DNA of 34,686 bases from Aphanocapsa sp. GSE-SYN-MK-11-07L (lineage in GTDB: Bacteria; Cyanobacteriota; Cyanobacteriia; Thermosynechococcales; Thermosynechococcaceae). The notes under the pieces are model-generated. The model saw only the letters and a program-made list of their open reading frames with translations, ran no database searches and was not told where the DNA came from. Location of the stretch: assembly GCA_019359715.1 (NCBI GenBank), contig JAHHGS010000121.1:1-34686 (forward strand), in the 5' to 3' direction. Shown in pieces: positions 25,984 through 28,779 of this stretch. The first letter of the stretch is position 1; each line of letters opens with the position of its first letter. Position numbers and translations under genes: made by a program.

Positions 25984-27285
25984 ATGACACTTAAATTTTT
26001 TAAGTCTTGGCAGCAGTTTGGTTTCCTGGCCTTGGTCGGACTGTTGCTGAGTTGGCTGATTAGCTGTGGCACCCCCGCTAGCAACAATTCTTCAACCAGC
26101 GGAGCCAAGCAGGTCGAATTTTGGACAATGCAGCTTCAGCCCAAATTTACTGACTACTTTAATCAACTGATTGCCCAGTTTGAAAAAGAAAATCCTGACG
26201 TGAAAATTCGCTGGGTTGACGTGCCCTGGGAAGCAATGCAGCGGAAGATTTTGACGGCGGTTTCGGCCAAAACCGCCCCGGATGTGGTCAACTTGAATCC
26301 CGATTTTGCCTCTCAGTTGGCTGCTCGCAATGCCTGGCTTGATTTAGATCGCAAAATTACGTCAGAGCAGAAGGCTGAATATTTGCCAAAGATTTGGCAG
26401 GCCGGCACGCTGGGCGGTAAGAGCTTTGGCATTCCTTGGTATTTGACTTCGCGGGTTGCGATCTACAACCAAGCCTTACTGAAGCAGGCTGGAGTAACAA
26501 CGCCCCCCAAAACCTTTACTGAACTGGCTCAGGTCGCCAAACAGGTCAAAGATCAGACTGGCAAATATGCTTTTTTCACTACCGTCGTGCCAGAAGATTC
26601 GGCTGAGGTGATGGAATCGTTTGTCCAAATGGGCGTCCAATTGGTGGATCAGCAAGGCAAAGCCGCTTTTAACACACCGGCTGGCAAAGCCGCATTTCAG
26701 TATTGGACTGATTTATACAAGCAAGGCTTAGTACCTCCAGAGGTGCTGACGGAAGGACATCGCTATGCGGTCGAGCTGTACCAATCAGGGCGAACCGGGA
26801 TTTTAGCGTCTGGCCCAGAGTTTTTAAATGCGATCGCCACCAACGCCCCCGACGTTGCCAAAGTCTCTAGCTCTGCGCCTCAGATTACTGGCGAAACGGG
26901 CAAGAAAAACGTGGCGGTGATGAATTTGCTGATTCCCCGCGATACTGACCAACCGGAAATGGCGGTTAAGTTTGCGCTCTTTGTCACCAATAGCCAGAAT
27001 CAACTCGCGTTTGCCAAGGCAGCGAATGTCTTGCCCTCCAACGTCAAGGCTTTAGCCGATCAATTTTTCACTGCTGCTCCGGCCAATGCCACGCCTGTCG
27101 AGCAAGCGAGAGTGGTCAGCGCTGCCCAAATGAAAGATGCTCAAGTGCTGGTGCCGCCGCTTAAAAATGTCAAACAGCTCCAAAAAGTGATTTACGACAA
27201 CTTGCAAGCCGCCATGCTGGGCCAAAAAACCGTTGATCAAGCGATCGCAGATGCAGCCAAAGAATGGGATCAGCGATCGTCTTGA
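25984..27285 (+). CDS. ABC transporter sugar-binding lipoprotein
   Basis: This 433-residue protein is a family-1 extracellular solute-binding protein. A lipoprotein signal ends at LISC with the lipidated Cys at 28, followed by a Ser/Asn-rich tether. The mature part has VEFWTMQLQPKF, the NLNPDFASQLAARNAWLDL segment and FGIPWYLTSR, as in maltose, glycerol phosphate and glucosylglycerol binders. The ligand cannot be read. No permease or ATPase genes adjoin, so it is an orphan component whose partners are encoded elsewhere. Its 3' end overlaps the convergent folC by 16 bases. Start ATG 25984 lies after a 174-base leader with an inverted repeat (25833-25842 and 25941-25950). Confidence 0.9.
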   Translation: MTLKFFKSWQQFGFLALVGLLLSWLISCGTPASNNSSTSGAKQVEFWTMQLQPKFTDYFNQLIAQFEKENPDVKIRWVDVPWEAMQRKILTAVSAKTAPDVVNLNPDFASQLAARNAWLDLDRKITSEQKAEYLPKIWQAGTLGGKSFGIPWYLTSRVAIYNQALLKQAGVTTPPKTFTELAQVAKQVKDQTGKYAFFTTVVPEDSAEVMESFVQMGVQLVDQQGKAAFNTPAGKAAFQYWTDLYKQGLVPPEVLTEGHRYAVELYQSGRTGILASGPEFLNAIATNAPDVAKVSSSAPQITGETGKKNVAVMNLLIPRDTDQPEMAVKFALFVTNSQNQLAFAKAANVLPSNVKALADQFFTAAPANATPVEQARVVSAAQMKDAQVLVPPLKNVKQLQKVIYDNLQAAMLGQKTVDQAIADAAKEWDQRSS

Positions 27286-28697
27286 AGCTGCGTGAGTAGT
27301 TCCCCAATCAGATAAAGGGAGCCACAAATAACGGTTAAGTGGGGGGTTTTGAATCCCTCAGTCGCCCCCCTACCCCCCCAACTTTGAGCTTCGACGTGAG
27401 CGCTCAGCCGAACGGGGGAACTGGATCTGAAGTCCCCCAGAATTGGGGGATTTAGGGGGCGAAGGTGCCGAGCATCAAAGTCATCCAGCGCTGCACCGCT
27501 AGTTTGGGCTTGTAAGGCCGCCTCCAGCCCGGCGGATAAATTGGGGTAAGTCTGGCAACTGGCAAGCCACGGACAGACGTGCTGAGCCAAAATTGCTAAA
27601 GCTTCTGGATTGGCTGAGGCATGGCCAGGAATTGGGACAAGGTAGAGGTAATGGGCTTTGATAGTTGAGAGGTGAGCACTGAGTAAAGCCTGCAAAATTT
27701 CCTGATGGTCTTTGGTGCCCAGCATCCCCACCACCCAGTTGACCTGAGCGTAGCCCAAGCCATCCACGTAGCGGCGTAGCTCTTTAGCGGCAGCCGGATT
27801 ATGGGCCCCATCAATTAAAATCTGTTCACCTTGCCAGTTGATCCACTGCATCCGACCTGGCCAACGAGTCTGCCCCATCCCGGTGACGATCGCTTGGTCT
27901 GTAATCTTTGACCAGCCTTGCTCACGCAAACTGAGCAAAGCGGCGATCGCCACGGCCGAGTTTGTCAATTGAAATTCGCCCGCCAGCACCAAGGGATACT
28001 CAATCCCCTGATACTCTGCCCAAGATTGCTCACCTTTTTGAATCAAACGGGCAGGTTGCACCCAAATTCCTGGGCAATCCAACTCGGCAATTCGGTTTTT
28101 GACTACGGCTACGGCGGCTGGCGGCAAGGGGCCAACCACGGACGGACGGCTCGGTTTGAGAATGCCCGCTTTTTCACCGGCGATATCAGCCAGCGTTGGG
28201 CCAAGGCGCTGCCAGTGGTCACGGCTGAGAGAGGTAATCACGCTGACCAAGGGGCGATCGCAGACATTGGTTGCATCCAACCGACCCCCTAAACCGACTT
28301 CAATCACGGCAATCTCTACACGTTGTTCGGCAAAATACCACCAAGCAGCGGCGGTAATCAGTTCAAACTGAGTGGGCTGATCGGGTTGAATCACAGACTG
28401 CACTTTTAACAGCGATCGCTCTAAATCCAAATCGCTAATCGGCTGGTCATTAATGCAAATCCGCTCGTTCCAGTTGACCAAGTGAGGAGAAATAAACCGC
28501 CCGACCCGATACCCTGCCGCCTTTAGGACTGCCGACAGATAAGCGCAGACTGATCCTTTGCCATTCGTGCCTGCTACATGCACGATCGGCACCTGCTGCT
28601 GCGGGTGGCCCAGATCAGCCAAAAGTTGCTCAATTCGCTCTAGACCGAGACAAACTCCAAACCGATCGTACTGTTTGAGAATTGAATCAATATCCAC
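27270..28697 (-). CDS. folC: Dihydrofolate synthase/folylpolyglutamate synthase with an inserted palindromic repeat
   Basis: This protein of about 475 residues adds glutamate to dihydropteroate and folates, using ATP. It shows AGTNGKGSVCAYL (P-loop), ELITAAAWWYFAEQ, EVGLGGRLDATN, LIDGAHNP and LTVICGSLYLIGELL at the C terminus. The last hallmark is separated from the preceding SAGLEAALQA by about 50 extra residues, made mostly from a GC-rich palindromic repeat (27364-27460). The start is set to GTG 28697, giving MDIDSILKQYDRFGV as in relatives; TTG 28706 is the alternative. The frame is intact. The enzyme probably still works, since the insertion lies in the C-terminal domain near a surface position; this is inference. 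Confidence 0.9.
   Translation of the reverse strand: MDIDSILKQYDRFGVCLGLERIEQLLADLGHPQQQVPIVHVAGTNGKGSVCAYLSAVLKAAGYRVGRFISPHLVNWNERICINDQPISDLDLERSLLKVQSVIQPDQPTQFELITAAAWWYFAEQRVEIAVIEVGLGGRLDATNVCDRPLVSVITSLSRDHWQRLGPTLADIAGEKAGILKPSRPSVVGPLPPAAVAVVKNRIAELDCPGIWVQPARLIQKGEQSWAEYQGIEYPLVLAGEFQLTNSAVAIAALLSLREQGWSKITDQAIVTGMGQTRWPGRMQWINWQGEQILIDGAHNPAAAKELRRYVDGLGYAQVNWVVGMLGTKDHQEILQALLSAHLSTIKAHYLYLVPIPGHASANPEALAILAQHVCPWLASCQTYPNLSAGLEAALQAQTSGAALDDFDARHLRPLNPPILGDFRSSSPVRLSAHVEAQSWGGRGATEGFKTPHLTVICGSLYLIGELLTQLQDDR
27364..27460 (-). repeat. Palindromic GC-rich repeat inserted in the folC reading frame
   Basis: The arms GCCCCCCTACCCCCC (27364-27378) and GGGGGATTTAGGGGGC (27445-27460) are imperfect inverted repeats. 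An inner CCCCCAGAATTGGGGG at 27434-27449 forms its own stem. In coding sense it reads GCCCCCTAAATCCCCC, a sequence commonly repeated in cyanobacterial genomes, here translated as PLNPPILGDF and following residues. It occupies about codons 413-445 of folC without breaking the frame. Repeat identity is from general recall and should be checked. Confidence 0.7.
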
Positions 28698-28779
28698 AAA
28701 AACCAATCACATCAACCTTTTGTCAGTTTAGGATGCGTGTTAGCCTGTGTCTATCCGGACGCTCAGGACTCGCTGCGTT

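Follow-up and report, generated by a model that had tools for sequence, protein, structure and literature searches.

Rickettsia and Wolbachia provide the best-known cases of translated palindromic repeats; both are obligate intracellular bacteria whose genomes are reduced, and weak selection offers a natural explanation there. The palindromic elements of Rickettsia are palindromes of about 100-150 bp that are found between genes and also in frame within many unrelated conserved genes (PMC2229807, PMC10969869). REP sequences of the GTAG and CGTC super-families likewise occur inside ORFs in several bacteria, with more than half of these intragenic REPs forming dimers or groups that encode 20-30 amino acids, and cyanobacteria are among the GTAG carriers (PMC3733652). 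Related behavior has been described for MITEs: in the 107-bp Correia element and ERIC, open frames are joined to other ORFs (PMC2229807), and a list of ORF-bearing MITEs includes MITEb and MITEe from Anabaena PCC 7120 (PMC10969869). Here we analyze a short palindromic repeat that is translated within the folC gene of a cyanobacterium, and compare it with these systems.

The palindromic insert in folC

The window is the whole stretch of DNA that was analyzed, a contig of 34,686 nucleotides (C121) from a 5.1-Mb draft genome in 159 contigs, which we studied as assembly sequence rather than reads. The ORF that contains the insert is folC (NCBIfam folC, E 1.3e-104; Pfam domains Mur_ligase_M and _C), and the source genome yielded no other comparably strong folC-like match. 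The preliminary description placed a palindromic repeat of about 97 bases at 27364-27460, in frame within this gene; we find that this repeat is the core of a symmetric 102-nt element at 27362-27463. The reading of the repeat as PLNPPILGDF and onward, with the frame unbroken, is also correct: the element contributes 34 codons to the 478-residue ORF. The features of the locus are as follows.

27270..28706, minus strand: folC (bifunctional folylpolyglutamate/dihydrofolate synthase), 478-aa ORF, insert included
27438..27463, minus strand: 5' arm of the element (TTCGCCCCCTAAATCCCCCAATTCTG), encoding RPLNPPIL; 19 exact genome copies of GCCCCCTAAATCCCCCA
27388..27413, minus strand: nested 26-nt module GTTCGGCTGAGCGCTCACGTCGAAGC in the core of the element, common to other copies
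27362..27386, minus strand: 3' arm of the element (CAAAGTTGGGGGGGTAGGGGGGCGA), with 76% complementarity to the 5' arm
27362..27463, minus strand: complete palindromic element, 102 nt or 34 codons, in frame; identified by repeat match, inverted repeat and absence from orthologues
27299..27340, minus strand: C-terminal end of folC after the insert (final strand TVICGSLYLIG and the start of the next helix), which aligns with relatives

On the minus strand the element runs from TTCGCCCCC to GGGGGGCGA and is translated as RPLNPPILGDFRSSSPVRLSAHVEAQSWGGRGA; only one of its six frames is free of stops, and this is the frame used by folC. The two arms (27362-27386 and 27438-27462) are 25 nt long and 76% complementary. 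The calculated RNA fold of the element has an energy of -62.5 kcal/mol (z = -3.26), stronger than all 200 shuffled sequences, and the element thus has the long stem-loop capacity that characterizes protein-coding palindromic elements.

Comparison with orthologues shows that the insert is specific to this genome among the sequences aligned. As the preliminary description anticipated, it is absent from the FolC proteins of the same family (18 of 18, one sequence stopping at a contig end just past the site), and the orthologues have no such loop. To quantify the difference, we counted the linker from the SAGLEAAL helix to GSLYL: it comprises 63 residues in the source genome. Among 17 relatives from the family the range is 6-16, and 41 more distantly related FolC proteins have 8-19. 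The source protein is thus longer by about 47-57 residues, more than the 34 that are recognizable as repeat. Either the inserted unit extended beyond the present element, with outer arms that have since eroded, or the protein already had a long loop at this site. The original insertion may thus have exceeded 102 nt, with a long native loop as the alternative.

The structural consequences were evaluated with an AlphaFold2 model built on a 44-sequence FolC alignment (mean pLDDT 90.1). In this model the C-terminal domain accommodates the insert between its last helix and strand pairs, as an unstructured loop with pLDDT below 50 for residues 416-442 and 444-450. Beyond the loop, the predicted chain returns to a strand (456-461) and a helix (464-477), with a pLDDT of 97 for the block 461-470. 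The model superimposes closely on E. coli FolC (1W78; Z 43.5, rmsd 1.9 over 396 residues). The fold is thus predicted to be intact, and the enzyme has probably remained intact, and presumably active, despite the insert.

Copies between and within genes

To place the folC element in its genomic context, we searched the source genome with DNA queries and patterns, a census that gives a lower bound on copy number. A 141-base query returned 43 DNA matches. The best non-self match to the folC element, at C141:4649-4747 (97% identity over 99 nt, E 7.7e-42), is an intergenic copy that differs from the folC copy at 3 of 99 core positions. The 17-nt end GCCCCCTAAATCCCCCA is present in 19 exact copies, while the reversed control pattern gives none. 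We read at least 32 copies of the repeat together with their flanks, and most of them are intergenic. Of 292 genomes drawn evenly from the phylum, 24 carry the 17-mer, with very uneven counts of up to 83; it was found in none of the four family relatives in this draw. Neither of the two findings that would have contradicted the preliminary description, an equivalent loop in orthologues or a lack of other copies, was made.

The copies appear modular. Simple repeats have cores of about 70 nt without the nested 26-nt module, the 97-nt cores in folC and C141 contain the module, and longer forms of it produce cores of 123 and 147-148 nt. The module GTTCGGCTGAGCGCTCACGTCGAAGC, in its short or longer forms, is common to copies on contigs C141, C80, C136, C22, C99 and C134. 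The outer inverted arms around the core are of three or more kinds (TAGACCTCTTGCATGAAT, AGGAGTTACGCAGTTG and ATAGCGATCCTAAATC), and those of the kind TAGACCTCTTGCATGAAT surround several copies other than that in folC. The core seems to be a module carried along by several MITE-like elements; this variety of outer arms, together with the patchy distribution among 24 of 292 genomes, is as expected for mobile DNA. A further nested palindrome (e.g., CCACTG...GGGTTCCTCGACTTAAAGCAAGTGGCGTGGG) is inserted within the element in the copies at C14:2476, C118:29351 and C134:12679.

The preliminary description also pointed to possible copies in other coding genes. At least seven of the copies in the source genome are intragenic, in seven unrelated conserved genes, and all seven are in frame.

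27362..27463 (C121), minus strand: element copy in folC, in frame
C136:2354-2503: element copy in the gene of a CobN-like chelatase subunit, in frame; gene named by sequence reading
C84:762: element copy in the gene of a ChlH-like chelatase subunit, in frame; gene named by sequence reading
C124:19677: element copy in menC, in frame; gene named by sequence reading
C79:14796: element copy in a hyuA/oxoprolinase-like gene, in frame
C118:29351: element copy in a soxA-like (sarcosine oxidase alpha-like) gene, in frame; compare structure 2GAG
C58:7652: element copy in the urea carboxylase gene, in frame; compare structure 3VA7

The insert is missing from the relatives compared for four more of these genes (eight for hyuA, three for the chlH-like gene, seven for cobN and eight for menC). 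For the other two, comparison was made with known structures: the soxA-like protein has 92 residues where sarcosine oxidase (2GAG) has 6, and urea carboxylase has 50 where structure 3VA7 has 14. Three frames and both orientations are used among the seven genes. The PLNPPxLGDF frame is found in four of them, the hyuA-like and chlH-like copies share one antisense frame, and the urea carboxylase copy is read in another.

The soxA-like gene has two further peculiarities. A 30-residue in-frame tandem duplication (REQCIQAEVNAVRQQVGLIDVGTLGKLELR twice) directly follows the palindrome and accounts for part of the 92 residues. The copy also keeps its left outer arm (TAGACCTC...), in which CGA takes the place of the in-frame TGA stop of the usual arm, suggesting that the stop was lost or never there.

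Several copies were excluded from the intragenic count. Those at C22:43784 and C80:14123 lie in N-terminal ORF extensions, and the true start is possibly downstream; they are located at the 5' ends of FAD oxidoreductase-like and fni-like genes, respectively, where they could form either a protein extension or a leader. A second repeat family, TCCCCCTAAATCCCCCT, was excluded as well; its two copies are in frame near the N-terminus of two TonB-dependent-receptor-like genes (C2:1390 and C137:13471), past the signal-peptide region.

In seven other cyanobacterial genomes, 3 of 61 exact copies are in frame inside long genes: two in one genome (G160: hypB and the gene of an NB-ARC-type protein) and one in another (G219: the gene of an NTPase/WD40-type protein), all named by sequence reading. 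The corresponding value in the source genome is 6 of 19 (Fisher p 0.005). In the other genomes, a copy was counted as genic when its frame stayed open for at least 120 nt upstream of the 17-mer start and for at least 220 nt downstream of it; short genes may thus be missed, and several of the 61 copies sit close to contig ends. It is conceivable, but rather doubtful, that translated palindromes are unusually abundant in the source genome and that the element itself is adapted to genes, with a preferred stop-free frame giving a harmless flexible peptide. In another cyanobacterium (G148:C1:206055-206900), a tandem array of the repeat, mostly with a 45-base period, lies within a 232-aa open frame.

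Origin of the insert

These observations are best explained by a short palindromic (MITE-like) element, dispersed in cyanobacteria, of which one copy inserted into folC and became a translated part of the enzyme, a reading that we hold with considerable confidence. The element would be non-autonomous, lacking a transposase and moved by an enzyme acting in trans. It would insert mainly between genes and sometimes inside them, and genic copies would persist only where they are in frame within a flexible surface loop and the protein still works; the remaining genic insertions would be removed by selection. Few would survive, because stops interrupt most of a copy's frames and the added length has to be compatible as well. 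Among 23 copies, the mean number of open frames is 1.6 of six. A random insertion would be in frame with a probability of about 0.09, and seven of seven would then have a probability of about 5e-8 for independent insertions without selection, a value that is only indicative because the seven intragenic copies were sought via open frames. Since this search biases the intragenic set, we examined ten non-genic copies with same-strand ORFs on both sides, and found no broken gene at any of them: the flanks, identified by sequence reading, are different genes. Insertion followed by loss of the gene-breaking copies is thus a model that fits.

The class of the element and its possible partners were also considered. 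The element has terminal inverted repeats and no transposase gene, as is typical of MITEs, and is too short for a transposase ORF. No clear target-site duplication was seen at the folC copy. A partner IS with the element's ends was not found in the source genome, where the draft may have lost one at contig ends, and none of the 22 places found in a search with the outer arm TAGACCTCTTGCATGAAT is clearly autonomous. A REP/RAYT system of the GTAG or CGTC type was not supported: the copies read have neither tag at their termini, which are TTCGCCCCC and GGGGGGCGA. A Y1 transposase partner was not supported either, since none of the four full Y1_Tnp genes and one fragment in the source genome is flanked by cores.

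How firmly can other origins be set aside? The peptide might have been domesticated: instead of being merely tolerated, it might be maintained by selection for a useful role, for example as an interaction loop or a regulated one. The recurrence of the PLNPPxLGDF frame in four of the seven host genes, and again in hypB and the NB-ARC-type protein of another cyanobacterium, is in line with this idea, but the preferred frame may merely be the one most often open, and the use of three frames in both orientations implies that there is no single common peptide. Moreover, the inserts lie in unrelated host proteins, that of FolC is predicted to be disordered, and the small divergence between the folC copy and its intergenic counterpart on C141 (3 of 99 core positions) shows little trace of selection. 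We therefore regard domestication as unlikely. A native, fast-evolving loop that came to resemble the repeat by chance or convergence is scarcely credible: linker length at this site does vary (6-19 residues), but the near-identity of the folC DNA to that same intergenic copy contradicts it.

The two remaining explanations would mean that the insert is absent from the mature product or from the gene itself. Excision after transcription or translation, by a mini-intron or an intein-like process, would be compatible with the strong hairpin potential of the element, and a splice of RNA or protein had been raised in the preliminary description. We saw no sign of it: the surrounding 1 kb gives no Rfam match, the junctions of the seven insertions have no residues common to all, and the conservation of frame and the absence of stops would be needless under a splice. 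At 34 residues, the insert is also far below the size of any intein known to us. Insert size and the Rfam search speak against an intein or self-splicing intron, and excision in general is extremely improbable. Repeats are common in this draft of 159 contigs, and one could have been misjoined into folC during assembly. However, a misjoin would interrupt the gene or terminate the contig, whereas we observe seven separate cases in which one gene spans both flanks, each in frame, and the same pattern in other cyanobacterial genomes; an artefact of this kind is very unlikely. Insertion of a mobile palindrome thus remains our preferred explanation.

Relation to known palindromic elements

The pattern described here occurs in an apparently free-living phototroph with a 5.1-Mb genome, and in conserved biosynthetic genes that include a single-copy folC. 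It offers a testable mechanism for the addition of loops to proteins by small mobile DNA, and seven enzymes within one organism in which the cost of insertion could be measured. It also has a practical side: repeat-derived peptides such as PLNPPILGDF pass for native sequence in gene predictions and protein databases. We found no report of a translated insert from this cyanobacterial repeat in the literature searched, which excluded key papers such as Elhai et al. 2008 on small dispersed repeats.

Each of the systems introduced above resembles the element in part. Intragenic REPs are, like it, small palindromic repeats within ORFs, but the units in the source genome are longer, have untagged ends and flank no Y1 transposase gene. 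The MITEs and small dispersed repeats of cyanobacteria (Nezha, MITEb/MITEe) are likewise short and dispersed, with inverted arms, a likeness by description; the same holds for the Correia element and ERIC, whose hosts are unrelated. The closest parallel is with the palindromic elements of Rickettsia, which the preliminary description had proposed. It stands as regards behavior: both are palindromic, are translated in frame in unrelated conserved genes, and have intergenic copies too. The further terms of that proposal, that the repeat is selfish and tolerated by its host, are what we infer rather than observe. The two differ in host phylum, and the cyanobacterial element has a core of about 70-150 nt, nested modules, and use of three frames on both strands. 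By analogy, the cyanobacterial element appears to work like the Rickettsia elements, a likeness of behavior for which we claim no common family.
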